Origin: Gammaproteobacteria bacterium
GTDB lineage: Bacteria; Pseudomonadota; Gammaproteobacteria; Xanthomonadales; Xanthomonadaceae
Assembly: GCA_025352045.1 (NCBI GenBank)
Contig: JANXUD010000017.1
Location: forward strand, 1-44,638
Direction of reading: 5' to 3'
Length of the DNA stretch: 44,638 nucleotides
Shown here: positions 16,007 to 37,120 of the stretch, piece by piece
How the letters are laid out: each line of letters opens with the position of its first letter
How positions within the stretch are numbered: position 1 is the first letter of the stretch
The notes under the pieces: generated by a model
The model's input: only the letters and a program-made list of their open reading frames with translations
Database searches by the model: none
Told to the model about the DNA's origin: nothing
Made by a program: the position numbers and the translations under genes

Positions 16007-16761
16007 TTGCGCAGCACCCACAAATGGGTCGGCAGGGCGAACCCGACGACGCGCGCAAGCGGCAGCGGCAACAGCACCGCGAAAACCGATTCGAGCCAGC
16101 GTGGCCCCAGTCCGTAGCGGTGGCAGCGGTGCAGCGCGTCGCCGGTGACATCGCGCGCCGAGGCGAATCGCTTGAACAAAGTCGGCAGGGCCCACGGCGC
16201 GACGAACTGCTCGCCATAGCTGCGCCCGCGGCCGGCGGCGCGCAGGTAGCGATCGGCCCAGGACCGTGGCAGCCAGGACAGGAAGGGCAGCCGGTAATGC
16301 GGCTCGACCAGCTGCAGGCGATGCCCGCCGGCGAAGTAGCAGGCGCCACCGGGCCGCAGCACGCGGGCGATCTCCTGCATCAGCGCATTCGCATCGGGCA
16401 CGTGTTCGTACACATGGTTGCAGACCACCAGGTCCATGCATTCGTCCTTGAACGGCAGGCGCATGCCCGAGCCCAGCGCCAGGTCGAGCCGGCCACGGGC
16501 AGGGACTTCCAGGCGCGCGGCAGCCAGCGCCGCAACGTCCAGGTCGATCCCGATCGTCCACTCTACGCGCTCGGCCAGCGCCACGGCGATCAACCCGTGC
16601 GAGGCGCCGACGTCGAGCAGCGTCGCGGTCGGCAGCGGCACGCCGGAGAAATCCTCCAGCACGGCGGCGATACGCGCCGCGATGGCACGACGACCGGCGC
16701 GATCGCGCAGGCGTTGCGCGGCCGGGTAGTCGTTGCGGGTGCTGGCCGCGGCGGCGGTCAC
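16003..16761 (-). CDS. Class I SAM-dependent methyltransferase
   Basis: A 252-residue methyltransferase. Motif I is LLDVGASHG (48-56), followed by WTIGIDLD (ribose-binding acid), DLVVCNHVYEHVPD (motif around the family's typical HVLEH) and IARVLRPGGACYFAGGHR. The region after about 165 (HYRLPFLSWLPRSWADRYLR) is characteristic of glycan- or lipid-linked methylases. The start is GTG 16761, from the GTGA overlap with the flippase-like gene. It is the fifth gene of the 20406-14508 operon. The substrate is unknown; a lipid-linked sugar is reasonable given its neighbours. Confidence 0.85.
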   Translation of the reverse strand: MTAAAASTRNDYPAAQRLRDRAGRRAIAARIAAVLEDFSGVPLPTATLLDVGASHGLIAVALAERVEWTIGIDLDVAALAAARLEVPARGRLDLALGSGMRLPFKDECMDLVVCNHVYEHVPDANALMQEIARVLRPGGACYFAGGHRLQLVEPHYRLPFLSWLPRSWADRYLRAAGRGRSYGEQFVAPWALPTLFKRFASARDVTGDALHRCHRYGLGPRWLESVFAVLLPLPLARVVGFALPTHLWVLRK

Positions 16762-17660
16762 GGGCGCTCCATGCGCATCCGCGCCAGGCCGATGGCGATG
16801 GCGAGCCCTTCGGCCAGGGTCAGGCACAGCCGCGCGGCGATCGCCAGCAAGGCCGCCGGGCCCGCCGGCAGCCAGGCCGCGAGGTACCAGGCCAGTGCCG
16901 CCTCGCGGACGCCGATGCCGGCCGGGACGACGAATGCGGCGACGCCGGCCACGCCGGCAAAGCACAGGCCACCGACGGCGGCGAGCAATCCGGGCGCGTG
17001 CGCGGGCGCGATGGCGCGCGCCAGCAACCAGACGGCGAGGCCGAGCAGGAAATAGCCGGCCAGTTGCAGCAGCCAGGCGGACGCAAGATGGGCCGGCGCG
17101 AGCGGCGTGGGATGGTCGTCCCGTCGCGGCATCACGCGTGCAAGCAGCCAGGCCAGCGGCCGCGCGGCCACGGGCAGGGCCGCGACGCCCAACAGCACCG
17201 CGCCCGCAACCATCGGCCAGAGCAGGCCGCGCGGCCCGGCCGATGACAGCGACAAGTGCAGTGCCACCCAGGCGCAGGCGGCGCCGACGCTGAGCGACAT
17301 CTCGCGCAGCAGGGCCGGGGCAACGCGCGCACCAGCAGGCGAACCACGATACGCACCCAGGCGCAGCACCGCCTGGAACACCTTGCCTGGCAAGTACTTG
17401 CCCGCCAGCGACAGCGACCAGCGGGCAGCGTCGTGGGCCCAGGTCCCGGCCGCGCCGCGCGCGAGCAGCGCATGCCAGGCGGTGGCGAACGCCAGTTGCG
17501 CGGCGCAGGCGCAGGCCAGCGCGCCTGCAAGCAGGGGCCAGGACAGCGTCCGCCAATCGAGCGTGAGTTGCGCGCGGAACTGGACCAGGCGCCAGGCCAC
17601 CAGGGCCAGCAACGCGATGCCCAGCACGGCACCGAGCCAGCGCCAGGACCTAGCGGCCAT
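16758..17660 (-). CDS. LPG-synthase-like flippase-domain membrane protein
   Basis: A 300-residue polytopic inner-membrane protein with about eight hydrophobic segments, matching the integral-membrane domain family of lysylphosphatidylglycerol synthases (UPF0104 / flippase-like). The conserved GKYLPGKVFQ block (about 90-99) and the late FVVPAGIGVREAALA motif are visible. Proteins of this type stand alone in many glycan and lipid operons and are thought to move lipid-linked intermediates across the membrane; this role is not proven for this one. ATG 17660 overlaps the upstream GT4 stop by 11 bp. Confidence 0.85.
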   Translation of the reverse strand: MAARSWRWLGAVLGIALLALVAWRLVQFRAQLTLDWRTLSWPLLAGALACACAAQLAFATAWHALLARGAAGTWAHDAARWSLSLAGKYLPGKVFQAVLRLGAYRGSPAGARVAPALLREMSLSVGAACAWVALHLSLSSAGPRGLLWPMVAGAVLLGVAALPVAARPLAWLLARVMPRRDDHPTPLAPAHLASAWLLQLAGYFLLGLAVWLLARAIAPAHAPGLLAAVGGLCFAGVAGVAAFVVPAGIGVREAALAWYLAAWLPAGPAALLAIAARLCLTLAEGLAIAIGLARMRMERP

Positions 17661-18732
17661 GCGCGAGCTTCCCCTGCGCCAATGCATCGGCCAGGCCGGC
17701 GTAGTGCGCCACGATGGCGCTCCAGCCGAAGCGTCCGGCGACCGCATCACGCGCCGCGGCGCCACGCGCATGCAAGGCGGCCGGATCGGCGCAGAGCAGG
17801 TCGAGCGCCTCGCTCCATGCCCGCGCATCGCCCGAGGCGACGCGGTTGCCGTTCTCGCCCTCGACCACGGCATCACGCAGGCCCTCGATGTCGGCCGCCA
17901 GCACCCAGGCCCCGCTGGCCCCGGCCTCCAGGCAGACCAGCCCGAATCCTTCCGCGTCACCGACGATGGACAGGTTTGGCATCAGCACGAGGTCGGCGCC
18001 TGCCATCAGCGCGCGTTTGGTCGCCTCGTCCACCGCGCCGAGCACCTGCACGCGGTCGCCCGGCGCGGCGCTGCCGGCGAGCGCGGTGATGCGGGTGCGT
18101 TCCGGTCCGTCGCCGGCGATGCGAAGCCGCGCCTGCGGATGGCGCGCCAGCCAGGCCGGCGCCACCGCCTCGAGCAGCCAGGCCACGCCCTTGCGTTCCA
18201 CCAGGCGCCCGAGGCAAAGCAATTCCAGTCCGCGGCCGGCATCCCTGGCGGACGGGCGTTCCGGGAAATCCGACACCTCGATTCCCACCGGGATCACCGG
18301 TGCGATGTCCGCGCCGACGCCGCGCGCGAGCACCAGGGACTGCACGTGGCGGCTGATGCAGGCATAGGCCTGCATCCGGCCCCAGAAGAAGCGGTCGAGG
18401 TAGGCCTGGTACCAGCGCGACGGATGGGTGATGTCCAGGCCATGCACCGTGGCGAACACCGGCACCCCGGCCAGGCGCGGCAGCCAGGCCAGCGCCGCGA
18501 GCGCGGGATCGCCCAGGTGCAGCACGGCAATGCGGCCGAGCGCGAGTCCCCAGGCCAGGCGCAACTGCGCCCAGGCAAAGAACAGCGGCAATCCCCAGGC
18601 ATCGCCGCCCCAGGTGACGGCCGTGACCGGGCGGCAGTCCGACAGCCCGCGCACCAGCCGCCAGCTCAGTTGCTGCATGCCGCCGACGCTGGGCGGATGC
18701 TTGCGGCTGAGCATCCACAGGCGTGCGCTCAC
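17650..18732 (-). CDS. Glycosyltransferase family 4 protein
   Basis: A 360-residue GT-B fold glycosyltransferase. The N-terminal half has the acceptor-side opening with GGMQQLSWRL and FATVHGLDITHP; the C-terminal half shows LLCLGRLVERKGV (family 4 nucleotide-sugar domain) and GDAEGFGLVCLEAGA, which contains the E-x7-E catalytic/donor motif. The protein is a retaining enzyme class that transfers a sugar from a nucleotide donor; donor and acceptor are unknown. The start is GTG 18732 and overlaps the GT2 stop (GTGA). It belongs to the seven-gene operon. Confidence 0.9.
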   Translation of the reverse strand: MSARLWMLSRKHPPSVGGMQQLSWRLVRGLSDCRPVTAVTWGGDAWGLPLFFAWAQLRLAWGLALGRIAVLHLGDPALAALAWLPRLAGVPVFATVHGLDITHPSRWYQAYLDRFFWGRMQAYACISRHVQSLVLARGVGADIAPVIPVGIEVSDFPERPSARDAGRGLELLCLGRLVERKGVAWLLEAVAPAWLARHPQARLRIAGDGPERTRITALAGSAAPGDRVQVLGAVDEATKRALMAGADLVLMPNLSIVGDAEGFGLVCLEAGASGAWVLAADIEGLRDAVVEGENGNRVASGDARAWSEALDLLCADPAALHARGAAARDAVAGRFGWSAIVAHYAGLADALAQGKLAHGR

Positions 18733-19670
18733 GGGCGCCAGTCGCGTCGCCGCTGGCTGGCCTGGATGTCTTCTAGCAGGCGCCGGTTCACCGAAAGCAG
18801 GTCGGCGACCAGGCCGATCGCCAGGCAGATCGCGCCCAGGATGATCAGGATCGCCGCGAGGATCAGCGACTGCACGTTGCCAGTGCCTTCGCCGGCCAGC
18901 CAGTGCGCCAGGAAGCGCAGGCCGATGGCGCCGCCCGCCAACGTTGCCAATGCGGACGGCACCAGGAAGAAGCGCAGCGGCCGGTAGATGACGAAGCTGC
19001 GCGCCATCGTCAGCAGGGATCGGCGCAGGTATTCGGCAGTGCTGCGCATCAGTCGCGAAGGCCGCGTCGGCGGGTTCACTTCGACCGGCACGCTATGCAC
19101 CCGCAGGCCGGCCTGTCCCGCCTGCACCAGGGTCTCGAGCGTGTAGGTGTAGCGCGAGTACACATTCAGTGCCATCGCCGCGTCGCGCGTGTAGGCGCGG
19201 AAGCCGCTGGTGGCGTCGGCCACGTCCGCGCCCGAGACCATGCGCACGACGGCGCTGCCCAGGCGCTGGAGGAATTTCTTCAACGCGGAGAAATGCGCGA
19301 TGCGCCCGATCGGCCGGCAGCCGACCGCGATGTCGGCGCGGCCTGCCAGCAGGGGCGCGCACAGCGCGCCGATGAAGTCGCTGCGGTACTGGTCGTCGCC
19401 GTCCACGTTGACGATCACGTCCGCACCCAGCCGGCAGCTCGCCTCCAGGCCGCTGGCGAAGGCGCGGGCGAGGCCGCGGTTCTCCGGCAGGCGCAGCACG
19501 TGGTCGGCGCCGTTGGCGAGCGCCACGTCGGCGGTGCCGTCGGTAGAGCCGTCGTCCACCACCAGCCAGTGCACCACGTCGAAGCCGGCGACCGCGCGCG
19601 GCAGGCCGGCGAGCGTGCCTCGCAGTTGGCCGGCTTCGTTGTAGCAGGGCAACTGCAGGACGAGCTTCAA
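18729..19670 (-). CDS. Family 2 glycosyltransferase with two C-terminal membrane helices
   Basis: A 313-residue GT-A enzyme of the dolichyl/undecaprenyl-phosphate sugar synthase type (DPM1/GtrB/ArnC-like). It starts KLVLQLPCYNEAG, has VVDDGSTDGT (37-46) and the metal-binding NVDGDDQY (88-95), and ends with two hydrophobic segments (about 233-257 and 263-290). Such proteins attach a sugar to undecaprenyl phosphate at the inner face of the membrane. It is followed by the GT4 with a GTGA overlap and preceded 10 bp upstream by a methyltransferase. Confidence in class is high, in substrate none. Confidence 0.92.
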   Translation of the reverse strand: MKLVLQLPCYNEAGQLRGTLAGLPRAVAGFDVVHWLVVDDGSTDGTADVALANGADHVLRLPENRGLARAFASGLEASCRLGADVIVNVDGDDQYRSDFIGALCAPLLAGRADIAVGCRPIGRIAHFSALKKFLQRLGSAVVRMVSGADVADATSGFRAYTRDAAMALNVYSRYTYTLETLVQAGQAGLRVHSVPVEVNPPTRPSRLMRSTAEYLRRSLLTMARSFVIYRPLRFFLVPSALATLAGGAIGLRFLAHWLAGEGTGNVQSLILAAILIILGAICLAIGLVADLLSVNRRLLEDIQASQRRRDWRP

Positions 19671-24375: not shown

Positions 24376-25668
24376 GTGAACGCGATCAAGACCCTCGGCA
24401 TCCTCGGCGGCTGCCTCGTCGCGGCCCTTGCCTGCGGTCGGGCCTCGGCCCAGACCACGGACGGCTACCACTCCATCCAGATCTTCCCGGTGGTGGTCGA
24501 TACCGCCTCGTTTGCGCAGCGCTTCAGCTTCCGCAACCCGAATCCCTCCCCGGTGACCATCACGCCGAAGTACTTCCCGGCGAACGGCACCACGGCCACG
24601 ATCCTCACCTGCCCGGACATCGTCATCGCGGCGGGCAAGACGGCGACCGTCACCAGCCTGCGCACGATGTGCCCCGCGCTGCCGACGGGCAGCCAGTTCG
24701 GCTTCCTGTACACCAGCGAGACCACGGCCAACAACCTGCCGTACGCCGGCTTTTCCCGGGTGGCCAACCCGCAGGGCAACGGCTTCGCGGTCGAGGCATT
24801 CCCGGCGCATACCTTCACCTCCGCCGACAGCGTTGTGAATGGCATCCGCCGCCTCGCCGCCGCCGCCGGCCAGCCGACCTTCCAGACCAACTGCTTCGTC
24901 GGCAACCTCAATGACGTCACGCCGGCCGGCTCCCCGGTCAGCACCCCGATCCACTACACGCTGTATGACAGCGCGGGCAACACCATCGGCACCGGCGGCG
25001 ACCTCTCCCTGGTCCCGGGCCAGGTGGTCCGCCTGCTGGATGTGTTCGCCACCGGCGGCGCGCCCGCCGGCGACTTCAACGATGCGTCGGTGAAGTTCGA
25101 GGAACTGGGTCCCGACGAGCCGGCCCTGATGGCGTTTTGCACCGTGCAGGACAACACCAGCTTCGGCGCGGACTTCCGCGTTGCCAAGCAGGAACTCGGC
25201 GCCGGCGGCCAGGCCTTCCCGGGTGACGTGATCGGTTCGCAGGACAACCATGTCACCCGCAATACCCTGACCACGGTGGACTCGGTCGGCCGCAGCTTCA
25301 CCATCGCAGCCGGCGCCAACGTCAACACGCACATGGTCTATTTCCGCCACCCCGACTACGTGCAGTGCGAAATCATCGACCCGGGCACCAACGTGCGCGC
25401 GCTCGCCGCCTACGGCCTGGAGATCCGCATGCTCGACCAGGACGGGCTGGTGGTGGCCGGCGGCAACAACATCACCGGCTTCCCCGAGATCTACCTTGGT
25501 GACAAGACCGATCGCAATGGCGGCTCCAATACCCGTTACCGCATCGAGGTCGAGGACTCCGGCGTCAACTCCGCCGCCAGCCGCTCGTACAAGCTGCACT
25601 GCCAGAGCGGCAGCGGCCATACGCTGGGCGACCTGATCAAGTACCAGGTGGCCGGCGACCTGTTCTAA
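24376..25668 (+). CDS. Secreted Cys-conserved protein, paralog 3 of 3
   Basis: A 430-residue member of the same tandem family. Signal peptide about 1-25 (ending ASA) before QTTDGYHSIQIFP; then FAQRFSFRNPNPSP, LTCPDI, MCPALPTGSQFGF, FPAHTFTSADSVV, QTNCFVGN, AFCTVQDNTSFGADFR, YFRHPDYVQCEI and LHCQSGSGHTLGD. The six cysteines are again conserved. The start is GTG 24376, with CGGAG 5 bp upstream; ATG 24298 is in frame but lies before the signal peptide. All three copies thus use non-ATG starts. Downstream there is only a weak hairpin (25670-25689) before the convergent membrane-protein gene. Confidence 0.87.
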   Translation: MNAIKTLGILGGCLVAALACGRASAQTTDGYHSIQIFPVVVDTASFAQRFSFRNPNPSPVTITPKYFPANGTTATILTCPDIVIAAGKTATVTSLRTMCPALPTGSQFGFLYTSETTANNLPYAGFSRVANPQGNGFAVEAFPAHTFTSADSVVNGIRRLAAAAGQPTFQTNCFVGNLNDVTPAGSPVSTPIHYTLYDSAGNTIGTGGDLSLVPGQVVRLLDVFATGGAPAGDFNDASVKFEELGPDEPALMAFCTVQDNTSFGADFRVAKQELGAGGQAFPGDVIGSQDNHVTRNTLTTVDSVGRSFTIAAGANVNTHMVYFRHPDYVQCEIIDPGTNVRALAAYGLEIRMLDQDGLVVAGGNNITGFPEIYLGDKTDRNGGSNTRYRIEVEDSGVNSAASRSYKLHCQSGSGHTLGDLIKYQVAGDLF

Positions 25669-25701: not shown

Positions 25702-28179
25702 TCAGCGCAGGCGCCGGATCGTGTAGTCGTGCAGCGAGGTCCCCGCCCCGGCGGGGACCATGACCCGCACCTCGAGGTCGCGCGCGCCGGGCGCGGGCAC
25801 GCTGAAGGGAAACGAAGCGAACACGCCATCGGCCCCCGCCGCGTGCGCAACGCTGGCGGCCAGCAACTGCGCGCCGCCCGCCATCGCCACGTCGATTTGC
25901 ACGCCCGCCTCGGCGCGCGCCCCGCGCAGTTGCAACTGGTAGTCGCCCGGCGGCAGCACGGCATAGGGTCCATAGGCGAGGTAGCCGGCGCGCCCGTCGG
26001 CGACCAGTCCGCGGCCAGGCTGGCGCCGACCGACCTGGGACAGCACCCGCGCGTCCTGGCCGACATGCACGCTCAGTCGGCGGCCGGGCGTGAAGTCCAC
26101 GGCATCAAGCCGGTAGATCCGCACCGGTGCATCCATCACCCGGCCATAGGCGGAGGGCGGCCAGGCGCCGCGCAGGAAGCCGTCGGCGCGCAGGCGCACC
26201 GAGCCGACCGGCGAAAATCCGGGCGGCGCGCGCGCCGCGCCGGTGGCCAGGTAGACCTGGTCGTAGGCCCTGGCGACGCCCTCGAGGAAGCCGATGTCGC
26301 CCAGGGCCGAGCCGCCGGCCGTGACCACGTTGCGCCCGAAGGTGTAGGCCAGGGTGGTCTTGATTTCCTTCGGCTCGAAGCCCTGGCCCGGGCTGCCGTC
26401 CACCAGCAGGACATCGCCGTCGCCGGCGACGGCGGCGAGCCGCCCGATGCTCTCGAACGCGCCCGCATTGTCCACTCGCCCCAGTTGCGCGGACGACAGC
26501 ACGGTCGCGTACACGCCCGAGGCCAGCAGCGTGGCGCCGAGCACGCGTCGCGCCGGCGCGCTGTCGAGCCAGGACAGGCAGCAAGTGGTGAACAGCAACG
26601 CGTACGGCACCAGTTCGCTGGCCAGGTAGCGCGCGTAGTAGGGCTGGTAGGGCACCGTCCAGTTCAACAGCGCGGCGTAGACGATGAAGCACAGCACGAA
26701 GGGCAGCAACAGGCGCGCGCCGGGCGCCGCCCAGCGGCGCTGCGCCAGCAGCACGTAGGCGATCGCCACCAGGGGGCACAGGTAGACGGCTGCGACGACC
26801 AGGCTGCCGTGGGCGATCCCGGACCAGCCGCCGCCTGCGACGCCGGGGAATTGCTGCAGCCACGCATCGTGCAGGTAACGCGTGCCGAAGCCGAGCTGCC
26901 ACAGCTTCCATCCGCCCAGCGCGAGCACGAGCAACAAGGCCGGTCCGAGCAGCGCTTCCCCGCGCAGGACCAGTCCACGCAGGCGGCCGACGCTGGCGCC
27001 GTTTCCGGGCAGGCGGGAGAGCAGGAGCGACGCGACGGCAGCGGCGCCGGCGATCGCCAGGAGCACCGCCGGCCAGCGCGGCCCGGCCGCGAGCGCGAAG
27101 CTCTGTTCGTACACCTTCAACGAATACGGCCGCGAAAACGCCAGGCCATAGGCGATCGACGCGGCATACAGTGCCATCGTCGCGTAGGCCCAGCGGCTGA
27201 TCGCGCGCACGCGTTCGACATCGGCATCGAACAGGCGCGGCAGCCAGGCCAGGGCGCACAGGATCGGCAGGTACATGAAACCCGACAGCCGGGTCAGGAA
27301 CAGGCAGGCGAAGGCGGCTGCGGACAGCCAGAGCCAGCGCGCGCGCCGCGCGCCCGGCGCCGATTGCGCGTAGCGCGCCAACCACGCGAAGCCGGCCAGG
27401 GAAAACGCCAGGGTCGGGATTTCGGTGAGCGGGAACTTGGAGAAGAACGCCAGCAGGGGATTGACCGCGAACAGCAGGGCGGCGGCGAGCCCCACGCGCT
27501 CGCTACCGCTGATCGCGATCGCCAGGCGCTGGAAGAACAGCACCGATAGCAACGACAAGAAGCTCAGTCCGTACGCCGCCGCGCCGACGCCGAACAGTCC
27601 GCCGAAGATCGCCAGCCAGACCGGGAACAGGTGGTAGAACTGGAACACGAAGGTCGGGTTCCTGCCGGGCAGCGTGTACACGCCCGGAAGGAAGGGGTCG
27701 GTGTAGTTGTCGACGATGTAGGACGCGCGCGCCGTGCCGGCGGCAAGCCGCGCCCAGGCCGGATCGTCCACGGCAATGCCATGGCTGTGCACCAGGTGCG
27801 CGGCGACATTGGTGTACACGCCCTGATCCTGGCCGCCCTGCACATAGGGAAAGGGCACGAGCCGGAACAGCAGCGCCAGCAACAGGACGGGGAGCAGGTG
27901 GCGCCAGCGCAGCGCGGGCGCGCCGGCGTCGGGCACGCGCCCCGGGCCGCGCCCTGCCTCGCCCGCCTGCACCGCCGCATGGAAGAGCAGCGTGGCAAGC
28001 AGGCCGAGCAGCACGGCCGACACCGCGACGAATCGGCCGGCCAGGGCGAGGCCAAGCCCGGACAGGCCGGTGGCTGCCACGAAGACAGTCAGGCGTTCGA
28101 GCCAGGCGTCAATGCCGGCGTCCCCGCCAGCCAAGGCGCCGACGGCTTGCCCGGCTTCCCCGGGCGCGTGCTGGCTCAC
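25702..28179 (-). CDS. GT-C-like polytopic membrane protein with a C-terminal shared module
   Basis: An 825-residue inner-membrane protein. After a first helix near residue 30-55, the first large loop holds PYVQGGQDQGVYTN, an acidic motif placed as in GT-C transferases (PMT/ArnT type) that use polyprenyl-phosphate sugars outside the membrane. About a dozen hydrophobic segments follow to near residue 570. A soluble region comes next, and the last 115 residues (about 711-825) begin SQVGRR and contain AGYLAYGPYAVLPPGDYQL, a module shared with the two upstream gene products. The start is GTG 28179, overlapping the lipoprotein stop (GTGA); the frame runs on upstream but that is a shadow. Likely transfers a sugar in the periplasm; donor and acceptor unknown. 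Confidence 0.85.
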   Translation of the reverse strand: MSQHAPGEAGQAVGALAGGDAGIDAWLERLTVFVAATGLSGLGLALAGRFVAVSAVLLGLLATLLFHAAVQAGEAGRGPGRVPDAGAPALRWRHLLPVLLLALLFRLVPFPYVQGGQDQGVYTNVAAHLVHSHGIAVDDPAWARLAAGTARASYIVDNYTDPFLPGVYTLPGRNPTFVFQFYHLFPVWLAIFGGLFGVGAAAYGLSFLSLLSVLFFQRLAIAISGSERVGLAAALLFAVNPLLAFFSKFPLTEIPTLAFSLAGFAWLARYAQSAPGARRARWLWLSAAAFACLFLTRLSGFMYLPILCALAWLPRLFDADVERVRAISRWAYATMALYAASIAYGLAFSRPYSLKVYEQSFALAAGPRWPAVLLAIAGAAAVASLLLSRLPGNGASVGRLRGLVLRGEALLGPALLLVLALGGWKLWQLGFGTRYLHDAWLQQFPGVAGGGWSGIAHGSLVVAAVYLCPLVAIAYVLLAQRRWAAPGARLLLPFVLCFIVYAALLNWTVPYQPYYARYLASELVPYALLFTTCCLSWLDSAPARRVLGATLLASGVYATVLSSAQLGRVDNAGAFESIGRLAAVAGDGDVLLVDGSPGQGFEPKEIKTTLAYTFGRNVVTAGGSALGDIGFLEGVARAYDQVYLATGAARAPPGFSPVGSVRLRADGFLRGAWPPSAYGRVMDAPVRIYRLDAVDFTPGRRLSVHVGQDARVLSQVGRRQPGRGLVADGRAGYLAYGPYAVLPPGDYQLQLRGARAEAGVQIDVAMAGGAQLLAASVAHAAGADGVFASFPFSVPAPGARDLEVRVMVPAGAGTSLHDYTIRRLR

Positions 28180-28766
28180 GGCCGCGAACGGATCTCGTAG
28201 CCCGACACCGTCACCCGCGATTTTTCGACGACGCGCACGCGTACTTCGATATCGTTCGCCGCCGTGGCAAGTTCGAACGGCAGCAGCGCGAGCGCGCCGC
28301 CGGCCGCGGGATCGAGCAGCGCCGCCGGTTCCAGCTCGCGCGCGGCGACCACGGTGGCGCCCTTGTCGCGGGCGATGTCCACGTGCAGGGGACCGGCATG
28401 GCCCGTCTGCACGATGCCCTGGATCGCCACCTCGTACTTGCCGGCATCGAGGTGCGCATACGGGCCGAACACCAGCCAGCCGGCGCGACCGTCGGCGACG
28501 AGGCCGAGGCCGGGCGTGCGCACGCCTACCTGGCTGCCGATGCCCGGATCGTCGATGGTCCAGGACTTGGCCATCGCCGCGCTGGGCGCAGCCGCGGCAC
28601 GGGGTGCGGCAGCAGCAGCCGGACCGGCCGGCGCTTGCGTCGCGGCATCCTCGTCGGTCACCGGCGTGGCGGGCGCGACGTTGGCTGGTCGTTCGCCGCA
28701 ACCGGCAACGCACAGGCAGAAGGCCAGCGCGAACAGGCGCGGGGCACGGGGGCGGCGATCGGGCAT
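28176..28766 (-). CDS. Lipoprotein carrying the shared C-terminal module
   Basis: A 196-residue predicted lipoprotein. A basic N-terminus and hydrophobic stretch lead to the lipobox CVAGC, with the acylated Cys at 23. Residues 24-73 are an Ala/Pro-rich linker. From about 74 to the end the protein is one module (SQVGVRTPG, AGWLVFGPYAHLDAGKYEV, NDIEVRVRVV, SGYEIRSRP) nearly the same in layout as the C-termini of the flanking gene products. The module is thus exported by itself and tethered to a membrane. I chose ATG 28766, because the upstream part of the open frame is not signal-like. Stop and next start overlap (GTGA). No family name is known to me. Confidence 0.85.
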   Translation of the reverse strand: MPDRRPRAPRLFALAFCLCVAGCGERPANVAPATPVTDEDAATQAPAGPAAAAAPRAAAAPSAAMAKSWTIDDPGIGSQVGVRTPGLGLVADGRAGWLVFGPYAHLDAGKYEVAIQGIVQTGHAGPLHVDIARDKGATVVAARELEPAALLDPAAGGALALLPFELATAANDIEVRVRVVEKSRVTVSGYEIRSRP

Positions 28767-28841
28767 GTCGGGATTCCGGTGAGAGGCGTCGAAAGTATAG
28801 AACGCGCACGGAGGCGGCCCGCAGGCCATCGGCGCGCGCAG

Positions 28842-31800
28842 TCAGTGGGTGGAGTCGATCCGGTGCAGTTCGATTGCGTCGAGGGCAAGGCTTGCCGTGT
28901 CCGAGACCCAGAGCCGTACCTCCAGGTCCGTGGCATCGGCATCCAGCGACAGCAAGGCCGACGCGAGCTGGCCCTGGCCGCCGGCGCCCGGATCGAGGTC
29001 CTGGTGCGCCAGCCGGACGCGGCCCTGGTCGACGACCACGTCGCACCAGGCCTGGCCGTCGCCCGCCCAGGCGCCGCGCAGTTCCAGCCGATAGCGGCCC
29101 GCTGGCAACCTGGCGTATGGCCCGTAGGAAAGGAAGCCGGCGTGGCCATTGCTGCGCCAGGATTCGCGCTCGCGCTGCCCGACCTGGTGCGAGAGCCGGG
29201 GATCGTTGGCGGGAAAGAGATGGCGCGGACCGGGAAGCCACTGCGCATCCCATTGGCCATCCAGCACCAGGGCCAGCAGTTCGCCCGCGCTCTTGGCCCA
29301 GTCCAGCAAGCGCACGCCCGACGATTGCGGGGCCGCGCCGTGGCGATGCAGGTCCAGCCAGGCCTGGATGGACGCCGCCAGGTCGCCGGCCGCGTGGCCG
29401 GAAAACCAGTGTGCGTGCGCGCCTGCGACTTCGCGGAACACCGGCAGGTCGCGGGCGATCACCGGCAGCCCGTGGCGCGCGGCCTCGATGATCGGAAGCC
29501 CGAAGCCTTCGCCCTCGGACGCCGTGAGCAGGGCGGCGCTGCCGGCGTAGAGCGCGCGCAGCTCCGCGTCACTGGCCGCGTCGAGCCAGTGCAGGCGGCG
29601 GCCATGCTCGGGATGTGCGCGCAGTCCCGCGGCGAATTCCTCCATCAGCCAGCCCGGCTTGCCGACGATGGCGAGGTTCGCGTCGCCGCCATCCGCCCAC
29701 ACCTGTTCGAAGGCCGCGAGCGCCTGCGCATAGCCCTTGCGCGGCTCCAGCGTGCCGACCATCAGGATGGTGGGCGCGCTCGACAGCCACGCCGGCGCGG
29801 CCGCAGATGCGGGCGCAGCCGCGTCGGACGCCTGCGGGTCAAGGTCGGCGCCCAGGTGGAAGTGGCCGATGTGCAGCGGGCGCAACCGCGGCGGACGCGC
29901 CTGGTCGCACCACTCCAGCAACTGGTCGGCTACCGCGCGCGAAATGCAGCACAGCCCGTCGGCAAGCCGCCCGATCGCCGGGTACCAGCGTTCGAAATGC
30001 GGCAGGGCGCCGGGATTGACCACGTCGGGCCGCAGCAAGGGGATCAGGTCGTAGACGACGAAATACAGGGCCACGCCCCGCGCGCGCCAGCGTTCGAACT
30101 GCGCCTGCTGTCCGGGAACGATGTGCGCGGACAGGTCGAGCCCGAGGAAGACGTCGCCGGGGCGCGGATCGGCCACCGTGTCGGCAGGCGCCGCACCGTC
30201 GCGCCCGAGCAGGCGGTGCACGAAGCCGCGCGCGAGGCGCCAGGCGCCGCCATCGAAGTACAACGGTGTCACGTCCAGGCCGGGCGGCGGCGTAGCCAGC
30301 AGCTCGCGCAGGATGTTGCGCACTACGCGCTGGATGCCGGTGCGCGCGTCGTGGCTGGCGAGGTTCGATACGTCCACCAGCAATTGCCGGCCGCGGCCGG
30401 GCGGCGGGGCGTTGGCCGACTGTGCCGCGGCCAGCCGGCGCGGCATGTCGCGGCCCGCATCGCGGCTGGCATCGCGGCCGGCGACCAGGCGCGATAGTGC
30501 ACGCGACTGCTGGCGCAGCATGCGCAGCCGCGCCGCATCGGCGGCAGTCGCATCGGCGGCAGTCGCATCGGCGGCCGTCGCATCGGCGACAGTCTCGTCG
30601 GCGGCCGCTGCACTGGCGGCAGTCGCATCGCGCGCAGCCACGTCGTCGCGCGCGCGGGCAGCAGCCTTGTCTGGCCCGGCATGCCAGCGCGCGATCGCAT
30701 CCAGGGCGCGCGTCGCGCTGGTCTCCCAGGAAAACAGGCGCACGCGTTCGTCGCCATGGGCAAGCAGCCGCGCGCGCAGCGCACCGTCGCCAAGCGCGTC
30801 CGCGATCTTCGCCGACATGGCCGAGTCCGACAGCGGGTCGAACATCGCTTCCGGATAACCGATCACTTCCGGCAGGCTGCTGGCGTCGGCCCCGATCACC
30901 GGCGCGCCGCAGGCCATCGCTTCAAGCGCTGGCAGGCCGAAGCCCTCGCAGCGTGACGGGAAGACATACAGCTCGCAGGCGTTGTACATCGCCACCAGGT
31001 CGGCATCCGGCACGAAGCCGACGAAGCGCACGTCGCCGGCGTCCAGGCCCTGCGCCCGCACCAGTGCATCGAGCTCGGCGCGGATCGGCGCCGGCGGCTC
31101 GCCCACCACCACGAGTTGGCGCGACCTGCGCAGCGCCCCGGGCAGCGCGGCCCAGGCGCGGACCAGCCCGGCGACGTTCTTGCGCGGGTCGAAGCCGCCC
31201 GTGTACATCGTGAATGGCCGCCACAGCGCATGCCGCGCGCGCAACGCGGCATCGCGCGCAGGTTCGGCGGGAAGCCGGCGGAACACCGGGTCGCAGGCGC
31301 CGGAGATGTTCGCCACACGGTCCGCCGGCAGACCCAGCAGGTCGATGCCCTGGCGCCGGCTGAAATCGGAGATCGCCAGGCAAAGGTCGGCGCGACGCAG
31401 GTCCTCGAGCTTGCGCTCGTACCAGCGCCGGGTCGGCGGGTCCTGCAGGTACTGCGCCTGCATGGCCAGCGGGATCAGGTCATAGAGCGTCACCGCCGTG
31501 GGCAGCGCGGGTGCGCTGCCATGGCCGATGGACGTGGCGACGGCGTCGTCCCAGCCTTCGAACAGCGAACTGACATGGACCAGGTCGGGCCGCAGCCCGC
31601 GCAGGAAATCCTCGCGCAGCAATTCGGCGATGCGGTTGCGCCAGGGATCGGGCGCCAGGTGTTCGACCGCGGGGAAGGGGTTGTCCCAGACCACGATGCG
31701 ATCCTGCGGCAGGAGTGCATCGAAGCCCGCGCGGATCTCCTCGATCGCGTCCGGCAGCCCGCCATTGAGGGCGATCCAGAATTCGTGCCCGCGGTCCTGG

Positions 31801-31898
31801 CGCAGCATCGCCTCGGCCAGGCTGCGCGAGTAGCGGCCGATGCCGCGGAAGCGGCTGCCGGCGCTCTGGCAGGCCTGCAGGTCGATGACGATGCGCAT
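28842..31898 (-). CDS. Double GT4 glycosyltransferase with the shared C-terminal module
   Basis: A 1018-residue protein with two complete GT-B glycosyltransferase domains. Domain 1 (about 1-390) has FRGIGRYSRSL, TMYTGGFDPRKNV and SRCEGFGLPALEAMA (E-x7-E). A low-complexity linker (about 395-495) holds repeated ATAAD units. Domain 2 (about 500-860) has GIQRVVRNIL, VGTLEPRKGYAQAL and SEGEGFGLPIIEAAR and is clearly related to the GT4 encoded at 35636. The last 120 residues carry HAGFLSYGPYARLPAGRYRL, the module also found in the next two gene products. Two active sites suggest it builds two linkages of a repeat unit or polymerises a chain in the cytoplasm. ATG 31898 overlaps no gene; the methyltransferase ends 3 bp upstream. 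Confidence 0.9.
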   Translation of the reverse strand: MRIVIDLQACQSAGSRFRGIGRYSRSLAEAMLRQDRGHEFWIALNGGLPDAIEEIRAGFDALLPQDRIVVWDNPFPAVEHLAPDPWRNRIAELLREDFLRGLRPDLVHVSSLFEGWDDAVATSIGHGSAPALPTAVTLYDLIPLAMQAQYLQDPPTRRWYERKLEDLRRADLCLAISDFSRRQGIDLLGLPADRVANISGACDPVFRRLPAEPARDAALRARHALWRPFTMYTGGFDPRKNVAGLVRAWAALPGALRRSRQLVVVGEPPAPIRAELDALVRAQGLDAGDVRFVGFVPDADLVAMYNACELYVFPSRCEGFGLPALEAMACGAPVIGADASSLPEVIGYPEAMFDPLSDSAMSAKIADALGDGALRARLLAHGDERVRLFSWETSATRALDAIARWHAGPDKAAARARDDVAARDATAASAAAADETVADATAADATAADATAADAARLRMLRQQSRALSRLVAGRDASRDAGRDMPRRLAAAQSANAPPPGRGRQLLVDVSNLASHDARTGIQRVVRNILRELLATPPPGLDVTPLYFDGGAWRLARGFVHRLLGRDGAAPADTVADPRPGDVFLGLDLSAHIVPGQQAQFERWRARGVALYFVVYDLIPLLRPDVVNPGALPHFERWYPAIGRLADGLCCISRAVADQLLEWCDQARPPRLRPLHIGHFHLGADLDPQASDAAAPASAAAPAWLSSAPTILMVGTLEPRKGYAQALAAFEQVWADGGDANLAIVGKPGWLMEEFAAGLRAHPEHGRRLHWLDAASDAELRALYAGSAALLTASEGEGFGLPIIEAARHGLPVIARDLPVFREVAGAHAHWFSGHAAGDLAASIQAWLDLHRHGAAPQSSGVRLLDWAKSAGELLALVLDGQWDAQWLPGPRHLFPANDPRLSHQVGQRERESWRSNGHAGFLSYGPYARLPAGRYRLELRGAWAGDGQAWCDVVVDQGRVRLAHQDLDPGAGGQGQLASALLSLDADATDLEVRLWVSDTASLALDAIELHRIDSTH
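30535..30632 (-). repeat. 15-bp tandem repeats coding the inter-domain linker
   Basis: Units close to GCATCGGCGGCAGTC follow one another several times on the plus strand, in frame with the minus-strand gene, giving repeats of five residues (ATAAD) between the two GT4 domains. Degenerate copies flank the perfect ones, suggesting copy number changes by slippage. Confidence 0.8.
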
Positions 31899-31901
31899 GG
31901 C

Positions 31902-33605
31902 TCAGTCCGCGCCGCGCGCGTCGGTCGGTTCGACCACCGGCGCCAGCGCGAGGATCCGCTCTGCGTCCTCGCTGAGCGGCAAGGGCGGCAGCGACGGCGT
32001 CGCGTCAGCCGCGGGCGGCGGACCATAGAGGCGGCGCTTGACCCGCGCCGCGAGGCCGGGGAACGGGCGCAGCGCCAGGGCCGCCGCGGTACGCGCGAAC
32101 GGCCGCCGGGCCAGTGCGCGGGCCAGGCCCGAGGCGCGCGCAACGACACCGGCCAGCAGCGCGTTCGCGCCGCGCAGGGGTGCGGTCAGGCGCCAGGACC
32201 GGCTGGCGAGGATGCGCGCCTGTTCGCCGCGCAGGCCATCGATCAGGCCGACGTGGCGCAGCAATTCGCCGTGGGCGGCGGCATGGGCATCGGTCGAGGC
32301 ACGCAACGACGCCTCCAGGTCGGGCACCCGGCGCGCGAGCACAGCCAGGTCGCGCTCAAGCTGGGCGATCCGCAGGGCGCGGACCTGCAGTTCGACGGAC
32401 TGCGTGTCGAGCATGGCGGACTGGGTGTCGAGCAAGGCGGACTGGGTGTCGAGCTTGGCGGCCTGCGTGTCGAGCTTGGCAGACTGGGTGTCGAGCTTGG
32501 CGGCCTGCGTGTCAAGCAAGGCGGCCTGCGTGCCGAGTGTTGCGGCCTGGGTGGCGAGCATTGCGGCTTGCGCGCCGATCTCGGCGGCGCGGGCGCGCTC
32601 GCGCGCCCCGCTCTCCGCCAGCGCGGCCTGCAATGCCGCCGCCTCGCGGTGCATCCGGTCCAGTTCATTGCCCAGGTCCGCCGCGCGCCGCGCGGCTTCG
32701 GCCGCCTGCACCTGCAGCGCCTGTTCGCGGCCGGCAGCATGGCCCAGCTCGCCGCGCAGTCGCCCGGCGGCCTCGGCCTGCGCGGTCCAGCGTCCGTGCC
32801 AGTCGGCCAGTTCGGCATCCTTGTCGTCGATGCGTGCGACCAGGGCCAGGATTTCCGCGGCACGTCGCTGCGAAAGCGCGTCCACCGCGGCCAGCCGCCC
32901 TTCGATCTCCGCCGCCAGGTCCACCTGCTCGCGGCGCACGAAATCGTCCAGCACGGTCGGCGGACCGAAGCGCGATGCCAGTGCGGCGTGCTCGTCGGCC
33001 AGGTAATAGCGGTTGATGCCGTCGCCATAGGCAAAGCCATAGCCGCGATCGAGCAGCAGCGCCTCCCACTGGTCGTGGCGGGAGACGCGGGAATTGGGCT
33101 CGGTGGCCTCCACCAGCACGACCCAGGGGCGTAGTCGCTGCAGCGAGATGCCACGCAACACGTCGGCCTCCGCGCCTTCGACGTCGATCTTGAGGAAGTG
33201 CGCTTCGCGCAGGCGTGCGTCGGCGCAGATCGCATCCAGGGTGCGCACGCGCACCTCGCGCTCGTGCAGGCTGAAGCCGGCGGCCCGGTGCCGCGCGGCG
33301 AACTCCGCGCTGGCGGTGGACAGGCCGCTGTCGGCCACCTCGAAGAAGTGCAGCCTGCCCTCGCCCGCACCGGCGGCAACCCCGACGTTGACGTCCGCCG
33401 GCCGTGCCTGCGCGAGCAGGGCATGCCAGTGCGCCACTGGCTCGATGTTGATGCCGCGCCAGCCGCGCTCGTAGAAGGCGCAGGTCACCGAGTCCATGCG
33501 CGGGTCCTGGGCACCGACGTCGATGTACGCGCCGACGGGGACGTCGGCCAGCACGCGGGCAAGCACCACGTCCTCGTAGTTCTGCGCGTAGGACACCCAG
33601 GTCAC
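31902..33605 (-). CDS. FkbM-family methyltransferase fused to a long coiled coil
   Basis: A 567-residue protein. Residues 1-220 are an FkbM-type SAM methyltransferase (YIDVGAQDPRMDSVT as motif I, FLKIDVEGAEADVLRG). About 225-465 is predicted coiled coil, rich in Ala, Leu, Gln and Glu, and includes nine perfect-register heptads of the type LDTQAAK (344-406). The end has SRSWRLTAPLR followed by a basic, membrane-friendly tail. A methyltransferase plus coiled coil next to wzm/wzt is the plan of O-antigen chain terminators such as WbdD, in which the coiled coil sets chain length. The capping role here is inference. The start is GTG 33605, 13 bp after the wzt stop; expressed in the same operon. 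Confidence 0.85.
   Translation of the reverse strand: MTWVSYAQNYEDVVLARVLADVPVGAYIDVGAQDPRMDSVTCAFYERGWRGINIEPVAHWHALLAQARPADVNVGVAAGAGEGRLHFFEVADSGLSTASAEFAARHRAAGFSLHEREVRVRTLDAICADARLREAHFLKIDVEGAEADVLRGISLQRLRPWVVLVEATEPNSRVSRHDQWEALLLDRGYGFAYGDGINRYYLADEHAALASRFGPPTVLDDFVRREQVDLAAEIEGRLAAVDALSQRRAAEILALVARIDDKDAELADWHGRWTAQAEAAGRLRGELGHAAGREQALQVQAAEAARRAADLGNELDRMHREAAALQAALAESGARERARAAEIGAQAAMLATQAATLGTQAALLDTQAAKLDTQSAKLDTQAAKLDTQSALLDTQSAMLDTQSVELQVRALRIAQLERDLAVLARRVPDLEASLRASTDAHAAAHGELLRHVGLIDGLRGEQARILASRSWRLTAPLRGANALLAGVVARASGLARALARRPFARTAAALALRPFPGLAARVKRRLYGPPPAADATPSLPPLPLSEDAERILALAPVVEPTDARGAD
32388..32576 (-). repeat. Nine 21-bp tandem repeats inside the coiled coil
   Basis: Units of the form GGCGGCCTGCGTGTCGAGCTT repeat with small changes over 189 bp, each coding one heptad (D-T-Q-x-A-x-L). 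The 21-bp length keeps coiled-coil register, so gain or loss of units would lengthen or shorten the rod without breaking it. Confidence 0.85.
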
Positions 33606-33618
33606 GGCGCGATCCGGG

Positions 33619-34845
33619 TCATGCGGCCGGCGTCTCGATACGCGGCGGCACCCAGGCAGTCCCCACGAACATGGGCTTGTCCAGGTTGGCGACAGTGAAC
33701 ACCAGGGCCAGGTCGCGCCATTCGTAATTGCGCTCGAGGTGGGTGTCGCTGCTCACCAGTGCGGTGGACACGGAATACGTGCCCGGCCCGAGGTTCATCG
33801 GGAAGCGGATGCGGAAATCCAGGCGCGATCCCGCCACCTGCGGGCCCAGCGCCTGGCCGGTATGGTGCGTGTTGGTGCCGTACACCGCCTGGCCCAGGCG
33901 ATCCTTGATCATGTAGCCCAGCACCAGTCGCGGCAGCGGGGCCAGCACGCGCACGCCCACCCGCAGTTCCACGTCGTCGCCGACGTTGACGAACTCCACC
34001 GGCTGGCCGCCCACGTCGCACAGCGCCAGTTCCTCGACCGTCGCCTCGCCGGTGCCGGACACCGTGCGCGCGCGGCCATCGTCGGCGCGGGTGACGGTGA
34101 CCGTGGAGTTTTCGCGCGCGGCGATCAGCGCGTTGTACAGGTCCATCACTTCCTCGACCGCGCCATCCTTCACCAGCCGCCCGTCCTCGAGCAACAGCGC
34201 GCGGTCGCACAGCTGCTGCACCGCCGAGCGGTCGTGCGAGACGATCAGCAGGGCGGTGCCCTGCTCGCGGAATTCACGGATGCGCGCGAAGCTCTTGTGC
34301 TGGAAGTAGGCGTCGCCCACCGACAGTGCCTCGTCCACGATCAGCAGGTCCGGGCGCACCGCGGTGGCGATGGCGAAGGCGATGCGCATGTTCATGCCGC
34401 TGGAATAGGTACGCACGGGCTGGTCGAAGTAGTCGCCGACTTCGGCGAAGGCCTCGACGGCCGGCAGCATGGCTTCGATCTCGCCCCCATGGTGGCCCAT
34501 CAGGCCGGCGGCGTGCCGGCAGTTATCGCGCCCGCTCAGTTCCGGGTCGAAACCCATGCCCAGCTCGAGGATGGCCGACACCCGCCCGGCCACGGCGACG
34601 CGGCCTTCGTTGGCGCGCGCCGTGCCGGTCACAAGTTTCAGCAGCGTGCTCTTGCCCGCGCCGTTCTGGCCGACGATGCCCAGCGCTTCGCCTGGGGCGA
34701 CGCGGAAACTCACGTGGCGCAGCGCCCAGTGCTCGGACTGCGCGCGCACGGGCGCGCCGAGCCAGCCAAGGACGCGCTGCCATTCGGCGCGATAGGCGCG
34801 ATAGACCTTGCCAAGGTCCTCGGCAACCAGAAGGGGCGCGCTCAC
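33619..34845 (-). CDS. wzt: ABC transporter ATP-binding protein with carbohydrate-binding C-terminus (Wzt type)
   Basis: Wzt drives export of a finished polysaccharide chain with Wzm. The 408-residue protein has Walker A GQNGAGKST (59-67), signature YSSGM (147-151), Walker B LLIVDEAL (167-174) and the switch His204. Residues about 265-400 form the beta-sandwich Wzt C-terminal domain (GYMIKDRLGQAVYGTNT, PGTYSVSTALV) that in homologues binds the chain end, making export specific to the capped glycan. The start is GTG 34845, overlapping the wzm stop (GTGA); longer frames upstream run through wzm and are shadows. A chain-binding Wzt implies a terminator enzyme, and the adjacent FkbM gene is the candidate. 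Confidence 0.94.
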   Translation of the reverse strand: MSAPLLVAEDLGKVYRAYRAEWQRVLGWLGAPVRAQSEHWALRHVSFRVAPGEALGIVGQNGAGKSTLLKLVTGTARANEGRVAVAGRVSAILELGMGFDPELSGRDNCRHAAGLMGHHGGEIEAMLPAVEAFAEVGDYFDQPVRTYSSGMNMRIAFAIATAVRPDLLIVDEALSVGDAYFQHKSFARIREFREQGTALLIVSHDRSAVQQLCDRALLLEDGRLVKDGAVEEVMDLYNALIAARENSTVTVTRADDGRARTVSGTGEATVEELALCDVGGQPVEFVNVGDDVELRVGVRVLAPLPRLVLGYMIKDRLGQAVYGTNTHHTGQALGPQVAGSRLDFRIRFPMNLGPGTYSVSTALVSSDTHLERNYEWRDLALVFTVANLDKPMFVGTAWVPPRIETPAA

Positions 34846-35639
34846 AGGACGTCCACCATGTCGGGGGCCGAGCGCCGGAACAGCGCGAACGCGGCGACCA
34901 GCAGCACGGCCGCGACGATCACCGTATAGGCCAGGCCACTGCCCGGAAAGGGCGAATGTCCATACAGGATCACCTGCTGGTAGGCGCGCACCAGCGGCGC
35001 CAGGGGGTTGAGCGCCAGCCAGCCCGCATAGCGCGCCGGCACGATGTCCGGCATGTAGACGATCGGCGTCAGCCAGAACAGCAACTGCAGCACGATGGTC
35101 ATCACCTGCCCGACGTCGCGCACGAACACGTTGACCACGCCCAGCAGCAGGCCCAGCCCCAGCGCCAGCGCGGTCGTGACTAGGGTCAGCAACGGCAACC
35201 AGGCGAAGGCGAGCGAGGGCGGATGCCCCATCAACGCGAAGATCGCCACCATGGCAAGGAACAGCAGCAGGTTGTTGAGCAGGGACGCCCCGACCGCGAT
35301 GATCGGAAGGCAGATCCGCGGGAAGGCGATTTTCTTCAGCAGGGCGGCATTGCCCACGAAGATGCCGAGGCAGCGCGTGGTGATCTCCAGGAACAGGGCC
35401 CACGCCATCGAGCCGGCCATCAGGTAGATCGCGTAGGCATGCTTGCTGGTGGTACCCGGCAGGCGCGCGGCAAGGACCTCGGACAGGACCAGGCTGAAGA
35501 TCGCCACCTGCGCCAGCGGCTGCAACACCACCCAGGCGGCGCCAAGCTGGCTGCGCGCGACCCGGGCGCGCAGGTCGTTGCGCACCGAGGACACGATGAA
35601 GAACCGGTAGCGCCAGACTGCGCGCAACAACTCGATCAC
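34842..35639 (-). CDS. wzm: Polysaccharide ABC transporter permease (Wzm type)
   Basis: A 265-residue inner-membrane protein with about six hydrophobic helices, of the ABC-2 type used for O-antigen, teichoic acid and capsule export. The early RYRFFIVSSVRNDLRARVARS motif and SQLGAAWVVLQPL are typical, as is the later LTPIVYMPDIVPARYAGWLALNPL. It forms the channel through which the undecaprenyl-linked chain is moved to the periplasm. The start is GTG 35639, overlapping the upstream GT4 stop (GTGA). Length is normal; no damage is seen. Confidence 0.94.
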   Translation of the reverse strand: MIELLRAVWRYRFFIVSSVRNDLRARVARSQLGAAWVVLQPLAQVAIFSLVLSEVLAARLPGTTSKHAYAIYLMAGSMAWALFLEITTRCLGIFVGNAALLKKIAFPRICLPIIAVGASLLNNLLLFLAMVAIFALMGHPPSLAFAWLPLLTLVTTALALGLGLLLGVVNVFVRDVGQVMTIVLQLLFWLTPIVYMPDIVPARYAGWLALNPLAPLVRAYQQVILYGHSPFPGSGLAYTVIVAAVLLVAAFALFRRSAPDMVDVL

Positions 35640-37120
35640 GGCATTCCAGGCGCCGACTGCCCGACGGCGTCGATCGTCAGCAGCAGCGCGCGCGCGCTGT
35701 CGCGCCAGGTGCGTGCGGCGACCACCTCGGGGACGGCGATGCCGCCGGTCTCCCAGCGCCGCAACCAGTCCTCGATCGCCGCCTGCAACTCGGCGGGCGA
35801 CTCGCCGCTGAAGTAGTCCACCCCGGCGCCGCCGACTTCGTGGAAGACGGGCAGGTCACGCGCCAGGACGGGCAGGCCGTGCGCCGCGGCTTCGACCAGG
35901 GGCAGGCCGAATCCTTCGCCCCGCGATGGCGCGAGCAGGGCCGTGCTCTCCCGGTAGGCGGCGGCCAGGTCGGCATCGTCGGCGGCATCGATCCACAGCA
36001 GGCGCTTGCCGCATTCGGGGTGGCTGCGCAACCGGTTCGCGAGGTCCCCGAGGCCCCAGCCGTAGCGCCCGGCGATCAGCAACTGCGCCTGGCTGCCCCG
36101 GGCCCACAGCCCCTCGAAGGCCGCCAGGGCCTGGGCATGCCCCTTGCGCGGCTCGATGGTGCCGACCACGACGAAGCGCGGCTGGTCGGTTGCCAGCAGG
36201 GGCAGGCGGCGCACCGGCAACAGCCAGCCCTCGAGGTCGGCGCCAAGCCCGAAACTGCGGATCTCCGGATGGCGTGGGCCACCGCGGGCCAGGCTGCGGT
36301 CACGGACTTCGCCGGCCACGGTGCGCGAAATGCACAGCGCCTGGTCGGCAACCTCGAGCACCAGGTCGAGCCAGGACTCGAAGCGCGCGGGCACGCCGTC
36401 GGGGAACCATTGGGGATTGCTCAGCGGCAACAGGTCGTAGACCACGACGCTGATGCGTACGCCGCGGGAGCGCAATTCTCGCCAGGCTGCCGATGCCTCG
36501 GGCACGCGGTCGCGGATCAGGTCCAGGGCCAGCAGGCGGTCGCCTGGCCCGGCAAGGACAGGCGTGTCATCGCCTGCGTCGTCTGCATCCATGCCCAGCA
36601 TGCGGGCCAGGAAGGCGCGGGCGTGGACATAGCCACCCGTGGCGGCCAGGCGCACCGGCTCCGTGCGCATGCCGGACGAAGGCGCGAGCAGGAGTTCGAC
36701 CAGCAGGCGGCGGACGACGCGCTGGATCCCGGCCCCGTGGTCGACCAGCGCCAGTTCCGTCACGTCCACCAACAGCCGTGGTCCCGGGCCGGCGTCGGTG
36801 GCGCGGCGCGAGGTGGGTACCTCCACGCCCGCGCGCTGCATCAACAACCGGGTGGGATCGGCAAGTACCCGACCCTTGCCGGGGATCGCCGGCTCCAGCG
36901 GCGGCGGGCCGGGCGGCGCGGGGCGCAGCCAGGCGCGCAATGCGCGCAGGGACGCGGTGAGCCGCCAGCTGCGGCTGCGCTTGATGGCAGCAAGCTCGGC
37001 GAGCAGGTCGCCGTTGCGCTGCTGCTGCGCCTGCAGGGCGAGCAGGGCCAGCGCAAGCCGTCGGGCAACTTCGCCCGATGCTTCCTCGCTCACTCCGGTC
37101 CGCCGTTCCACGTCCTGCAT
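35636..37120 (-). CDS. Glycosyltransferase family 4 protein with an N-terminal coiled coil
   Basis: A 494-residue protein that opens the minus-strand glycan operon. Residues about 10-45 are helical/coiled-coil (ARRLALALLALQAQQQRN), then SRSWRLTASLRALRAWL, a motif also found in the FkbM protein. From about 110 the GT-B fold has GAGIQRVVRRLL, VGTIEPRKGHAQAL and SRGEGFGLPLVEAAA (E-x7-E), closely matching the second domain of the 1018-residue enzyme; the two probably arose by duplication. It transfers a sugar in the cytoplasm from an unknown nucleotide donor. It begins just downstream (minus strand) of tRNA-Gly, so the operon promoter must lie in the 55 bp before it or further upstream past the tRNA. 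Confidence 0.88.
   Translation of the reverse strand: MQDVERRTGVSEEASGEVARRLALALLALQAQQQRNGDLLAELAAIKRSRSWRLTASLRALRAWLRPAPPGPPPLEPAIPGKGRVLADPTRLLMQRAGVEVPTSRRATDAGPGPRLLVDVTELALVDHGAGIQRVVRRLLVELLLAPSSGMRTEPVRLAATGGYVHARAFLARMLGMDADDAGDDTPVLAGPGDRLLALDLIRDRVPEASAAWRELRSRGVRISVVVYDLLPLSNPQWFPDGVPARFESWLDLVLEVADQALCISRTVAGEVRDRSLARGGPRHPEIRSFGLGADLEGWLLPVRRLPLLATDQPRFVVVGTIEPRKGHAQALAAFEGLWARGSQAQLLIAGRYGWGLGDLANRLRSHPECGKRLLWIDAADDADLAAAYRESTALLAPSRGEGFGLPLVEAAAHGLPVLARDLPVFHEVGGAGVDYFSGESPAELQAAIEDWLRRWETGGIAVPEVVAARTWRDSARALLLTIDAVGQSAPGMP

Follow-up and report, generated by a model that had tools for sequence, protein, structure and literature searches.

Genes of the locus and their common C-terminal module

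The window, the whole 44,638-nucleotide stretch of DNA that was analysed, carries on its minus strand a Wzt protein in which an ABC ATPase is joined to a Wzt_C carbohydrate-binding domain (33619..34845; Pfam Wzt_C E 3.1e-37, ABC_tran E 3.2e-20), a Wzm-type permease (34842..35639), and an FkbM-type methyltransferase with a coiled coil (31902..33605; Pfam Methyltransf_21 E 2.3e-27). The permease, which we take to be Wzm, has homologues that adjoin Wzt in the fetched loci L022, L071, L072, L082, and L083. All other features given here by coordinates are also on the minus strand unless stated. A double GT4 glycosyltransferase of 1018 residues (28842..31898) contains two Glycos_transf_1 stretches according to Pfam, has no transmembrane segment predicted by hydropathy, and is a probable polymerase; a single-domain GT4 (35636..37120) is 46% similar to its second GT4 domain. 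Two further genes lie at some distance. The first encodes a GT2 (18729..19670; Pfam Glycos_transf_2 E 1.6e-17) whose homologues are found near GT-C-like genes that carry the module described below, and which is possibly the polyprenyl-phosphate sugar synthase for a GT-C step, and the second encodes an LPG_synthase_TM-like protein (16758..17627; 32.2 bits, under the Pfam cut-off of 33.4) that is a possible flippase. This resembles three-component systems described in PMC11127046, in which side branches are attached outside the cytoplasm.

The double GT4 ends in a module of about 125 residues (28845..29228), and two neighboring proteins end in homologous modules. One is a predicted lipoprotein of 196 residues (28176..28766, start ATG 28766), which consists of a VAGC lipobox, a linker, and then the module (28179..28568). 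The other is a GT-C-like membrane protein of 825 residues (25702..28179), matched by Pfam PMT at E 9.6e-7 in an 813-residue version, with the module at residues 696-824 (25705..26082). The most likely start of this last frame is GTG 28179, which overlaps the lipoprotein stop and yields the same residue numbering as a preliminary description of this DNA. The GT-C-like protein has about 10 transmembrane segments by hydropathy, the last of which ends at residue 505; since a charge count does not separate the two membrane sides, it is membership in the GT-C family that would place its module in the periplasm.

The preliminary description held that three adjacent genes share one C-terminal plan with the same motifs in the same order, and homology scores far above those of shuffled sequences bear this out. 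Smith-Waterman scores were 135 for GT4 against lipoprotein, 157 for GT4 against GT-C, and 192 for lipoprotein against GT-C, with maxima of 52, 56, and 68, respectively, in 500 shuffles each. The three copies are 30-38% identical, and 29 of the 137 columns in their alignment are invariant. The invariant residues G-x-L, GPY, and E-x-R of the module may be purely structural. The motifs [SH]QVG, AG[FWY]L-x-[YF]GPYA, a D-[VI] strand, and D[LI]EVR were confirmed in order, though not to the letter as first quoted, because the GT4 copy reads DLEVRL rather than DLEVRV and its last strand is AIELHRI. A profile built from the three copies, as had been proposed, matches exactly these three places in a search of the 3.0 Mb genome, the fourth match being at chance level (E 0.3). 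In a control at E <= 1e-3, a 24-row profile matched 55 of 648 pooled proteins and none of the same 648 reversed. Among the pooled proteins are those from which the profile was built, the window lipoprotein with two start sites, and one gene twice.

Predicted fold and sequence relatives

The lipoprotein module is well predicted by AlphaFold2 as a jelly-roll-like domain of ten strands and one short helix (24 sequences; mean pLDDT 92.4, pTM 0.86). When the GT4 copy was modelled in context with the second GT4 domain (532 residues, 17 sequences; pLDDT 88.4, pTM 0.82), its strand order was the same as that of the lipoprotein copy, with one strand split. The earlier proposal of a single beta-sandwich on three scaffolds is thus supported by models for the lipoprotein and GT4 copies, and for the GT-C copy by sequence.

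The only Foldseek match in the PDB at E <= 0.001 was Gap123 (6oyc_B, E 6.5e-4, TMq 0.58). The next matches were CBM36 (7ay3), CBM6 (5fui, 1gmm, 2cdp), a porphyran-binding protein (8xmz), and Xyn30D (4qaw), and among these CBM matches rank unrelated jelly-rolls such as IBDV VP2. The CBM6 and CBM36 chains are similar to the module model in overall predicted fold, with TM-scores of about 0.5, but they are only 8-9% identical to it, belong to other hosts, and have no counterpart in a Pfam CBM match. The models therefore only suggest a jelly-roll of the carbohydrate-binding type.

The preliminary description knew of no named family for the domain, and none appeared in either library scanned. Across 24 module members the best Pfam match was to GH3_C at E 0.014, with no match to any CBM family, and an NCBIfam scan of the three window proteins and of a set of GT-C-like proteins gave no match over the module. 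Assignment to DUF4397 (PF14344) was rejected at 14.9-16.2 bits against a curated cut-off of 30.6. The Wzt_C domain (PF14524) is comparable in being a beta-sandwich of a same-locus protein that reads the same polymer, but it is fused to an ABC ATPase, and membership of the module in Wzt_C was rejected at an hhalign probability of 1.9% and with no Pfam match. A profile search of PDB sequences gave a weak match to the C-termini of GH98 enzymes (E 0.0025); Tenascin, the best PDB-sequence match of the three-copy profile at E 0.028, was judged to be chance. Searches of plasmids for the module returned 2 records and 1 record, and a search of phages returned no match.

A distant relative is the C-terminus of OpgB, phosphoglycerol transferase I, which aligned to the module at an hhalign probability of 96.2% (E 2.4e-9) over 83 columns only, with the GPY part unaligned. 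OpgB is an enzyme of the sulfatase type that modifies periplasmic glucan. Domains distantly related to the module end the OpgB-type phosphoglycerol transferases of loci L025-L029 and L081, and the host in L026 was identified as phosphoglycerol transferase I by NCBIfam at 1086.7 bits.

Recurrence of the scaffolds, hosts, and gene context

With an 8-row profile at E <= 1e-4, the order yielded at least 35 matching genomes among 299, of which 12 had a match of the full type and 23 the partial OpgB type only. Samples from the class and from the phylum yielded at least 6 of 369 (3 of them from beyond the order) and at least 7 of 398 (2 from beyond the class), respectively; all these counts are lower bounds and include the source genome each time. 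When named genomes were scanned, 19 of the 93 pattern matches proved to be relatives, and in 18 of these 19 loci the module lies in a called gene, L099 being the exception. The relatives include Desulfosporosinus, Advenella, a Holosporales MAG, Noviherbaspirillum, three Pseudomonas, Sphingomonas, Paenibacillus, Pelosinus, a Bacteroidetes MAG, and an Elusimicrobia MAG, and GT-C-like proteins ending in the module occur in several phyla. Genes in the fetched loci were called with a codon-usage script, so that their starts are approximate.

The module is a solid, widespread, and unnamed domain. The 51 module-bearing proteins in the fetched stretches comprise 22 polytopic membrane proteins with a C-terminal module, one of which has two copies, 10 GT4s (9 with the module C-terminal), 4 OpgB-type proteins, 3 lipoproteins, 2 rows for one methyltransferase gene, and 10 others; two lipoproteins and one GT4 were added later. 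The description of the module as always C-terminal holds for the window and for most of these hosts, but in some it is internal, N-terminal, or in tandem (L078, L090, L091, L096, and L098, for example). For most of the membrane hosts the term GT-C-like denotes length, a hydropathy count of transmembrane segments, and context. Among the hosts scanned, Pfam PMT matched the window protein and that of L083, and DUF6311 was the sole match for a single protein in L093 and another in L101. No family exceeded the cut-off for the hosts in L022, L024, L067, L068 (a 663-residue protein), L073, L074, L075, L084, L085, and L086.

Several hosts have architectures of their own. A 647-residue protein of Paenibacillus taiwanensis (L091:8996-10939) consists largely of four tandem modules, a Desulfobacteraceae GT-C-like protein (L086:6366-8909) has two tandem modules at its C-terminus, and a SAM-dependent methyltransferase with a C-terminal module is encoded at L088:9071-10378 (the same gene as L069:8081-9388). 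The Pseudomonas loci L093, L097, and L101 each encode two GT-C-like proteins, both ending in the module, and these pairs flank GT2, methyltransferase-like, and GtrA-type genes.

A search with the second GT4 domain gave matches in 23 of the 299 genomes of the order. The module was present in all seven of the closest places outside the window (396-408 bits), the nearest orthologues of the polymerase, and absent within 1.5 kb in the 22 remaining fetched GT4 loci (<=324 bits, including window positions 35636-37120), where the fetched sequence reaches 1.5 kb beyond the matched domain and a module farther away would be missed. A lipoprotein with the module was found in 5 of 198 genomes of the family, representing five genera with that of the window included; the four homologues in other genera are in L022, L023, L143, and L144. 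In E. coli, an Asp at position +2 after the lipobox cysteine governs the sorting of lipoproteins. The residue at this position is G in the window protein, K in L022, S in L023, Q in L143, and E in L144, with Asp in none, and by the E. coli rule the window lipoprotein is probably in the outer membrane. The lipoprotein gene adjoins a GT2 gene in L022 and L144, is one gene away from it in L143, and is three genes away in L023, and genes that by eye encode electron-transfer flavoproteins are present in all four stretches.

All three scaffolds recur in genome G117 (L022), which belongs to another genus, in a cluster with the order wzm-wzt-FkbM-GT4-gmd-rmd-GT-C-lipoprotein (gmd and rmd by eye). Locus L083 has a module-bearing GT4 and a syntenic orthologue of the window GT-C protein that also carries the module, but the lipoprotein is missing, so that the trio is a recurrent combination and not an obligate unit. 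The module is on both the GT4 and the GT-C-like proteins in the window, L083, L022, and L068, and on the GT-C-like protein but not the GT4 in L024, L067, L084, L085, and L086. Within a single pathway it thus shifts from scaffold to scaffold, independently of any particular catalytic fold. In two orthologues of the window GT-C protein that are 38% identical to it (L068:9429-12008 and L070:11093-13588), a different C-terminal domain with the pattern GWS-x-PE...G-x-W occupies the place of the module, a domain swap at one position, and homology of the two domains was rejected at an hhalign probability of 0.3%.

It had been asked whether the module always lies next to wzm/wzt or glycosyltransferase genes. 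There is a clear link to both types of locus, but not a dependence on wzm/wzt, because GT-C-like proteins carry the module in stretches where no Wzm or Wzt homologue was found, and it is also present on the methyltransferase, distantly on OpgB, and as tandem copies in the Paenibacillus protein. Of the 19 loci in which a GT-C-like protein bears the module, 16 have a GT2 gene within the fetched stretch (the exceptions being L068, L075, and L087), as do none of the 6 OpgB loci; eight of these 19 loci supplied the GT2 profile itself, and 8 of the remaining 11 have the gene. In the four loci where a candidate chosen by eye was tested, it proved to be a GtrA gene (L085, L093, and L097) or an EamA gene (L073). 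Genes of the gmd/rmd type, judged by eye from N-termini, are present in L022, L024, L067, L068, L070, L071, L072, L082, and L145, and none was seen among the called genes of L083. When the window genome was searched with 60 residues from the N-terminus of a Gmd, it gave only a weak match that covers about 48 of them at 48%. D-rhamnan was rejected as a general ligand because the module family occurs in loci both with and without such genes.

Proposed role of the module

The role that we propose is well motivated but unproven. We favor, with somewhat more confidence than doubt, the reading that the module represents an unnamed CBM-like family of jelly-rolls that holds the polysaccharide made by the locus. 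The closest experimental precedent is the C-terminal Ig-like CBM of ORF12 (residues 503-652), a GT136 enzyme of the GT-C type from Citrobacter youngae O1, which, according to PMC11127046, binds unmodified O-polysaccharide and is dispensable for activity. It resembles the window GT-C copy in being a beta-rich domain placed after the last transmembrane segment, and in belonging to an O-polysaccharide locus of the ABC-transporter type. The ORF12 locus also encodes a lipid-donor synthase and a flippase, roles for which the GT2 and the possible flippase of the window are candidates. It differs in being Ig-like and, in what was available of that source, in not being reported on a GT4 or a lipoprotein, and the comparison is by description and not by sequence. 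A second Ig-like CBM is predicted on ORF6, the Klebsiella pneumoniae O7 terminator; PMC11231755 states that no CBMs had so far been identified in other terminators. This protein is similar in carrying a predicted CBM on an O-polysaccharide assembly enzyme and different in being a chain terminator with an Ig-like domain, again compared by description and not by sequence. In the partial coverage offered by PMC, neither the module itself, nor a CBM on a GT4 polymerase of the ABC pathway, nor a stand-alone O-antigen-binding lipoprotein was found.

In the sequence of events that we envisage, the GT4 copy would keep the growing chain at the cytoplasmic polymerase, and after export by Wzm/Wzt the polymer, still linked to its lipid, would be held in the periplasm by the GT-C copy, so that the membrane enzyme could use a lipid-linked donor to attach side branches to it. 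The finished chain or LPS would then be bound by the lipoprotein copy, whose probable location is the outer membrane. If the module holds polymer, each enzyme would be able to keep its long substrate, which is an economical reading of its distribution. Polymer holding draws support from the jelly-roll-like model, the CBM6 and CBM36 structures among the Foldseek matches, the weak match to GH98, the predominance of glycan enzymes among the hosts, the GT2 genes near GT-C-like hosts, the GtrA or EamA genes of four loci, the presence of the module on all seven of the closest polymerase orthologues, and the ORF12 precedent. Counting against it are the single Foldseek match at E <= 0.001, the unrelated jelly-rolls among the matches, the lack of a profile link to Wzt_C, the other domain in L068 and L070, the missing lipoprotein in L083, the dispensability of the CBM in ORF12, the possibly structural nature of the invariant residues, and a charge count that does not separate the two sides of the membrane. 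The stronger version, that one polysaccharide is read in three compartments by the polymerase, the periplasmic branching enzyme, and the outer-membrane lipoprotein, is possible but doubtful; were it true, a single recognition module would link the making of an O-antigen-type polymer to its decoration and display.

It is rather unlikely that the module is instead a docking or oligomerization domain that does not bind sugar but brings the polymerase together with the GT-C protein and further partners. Jelly-rolls often mediate protein contacts, and a docking function would suit a domain found at the ends of dissimilar proteins within a single pathway and shifting from one to another, but with the GT4 copy in the cytoplasm and the lipoprotein copy exported the three could not share one complex, and hosts of unrelated context, such as the Paenibacillus protein with its four tandem copies, would not be expected. 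We consider it quite unlikely that the copies are all CBM-like but bind different glycans or different portions of what the pathway makes, so that they have a common fold and not a common ligand. That two genera, represented by the window and by G117, have all three scaffolds together argues against this, although their modest identity of 30-38%, the presence of the family in loci with and without gmd/rmd-type genes, and the lack of grouping by locus in a 25-row tree (poorly resolved, with 4 of 22 inner branches starred) would all be compatible with it. That the module has no ligand and serves as a structural cap or spacer is very improbable. Its conserved residues do look like beta-sandwich core residues, and some related enzymes lack it or have another domain in its place, but a spacer role would leave unexplained the lipoproteins of five genera in which it makes up nearly the whole of the mature protein.

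The profile now available describes a domain that ends many GT-C-like proteins of unknown specificity and covers a clade of O-polysaccharide polymerases as well. If polymer binding is correct, the module could help to explain by what means polymerases and branching enzymes retain their acceptor, which the dispensable CBM of ORF12 does not answer. The stand-alone lipoprotein is a candidate O-antigen-binding envelope factor.

The plus strand of the window also encodes three similar secreted-looking proteins of 430-439 residues (20744-22063, 22852-24165, and 24376-25668), which have in common the motif TDGYH...IFPVVVD... and form a tandem row with a small gene between. Their counterparts in L083 have the same arrangement and are 59-64% identical.
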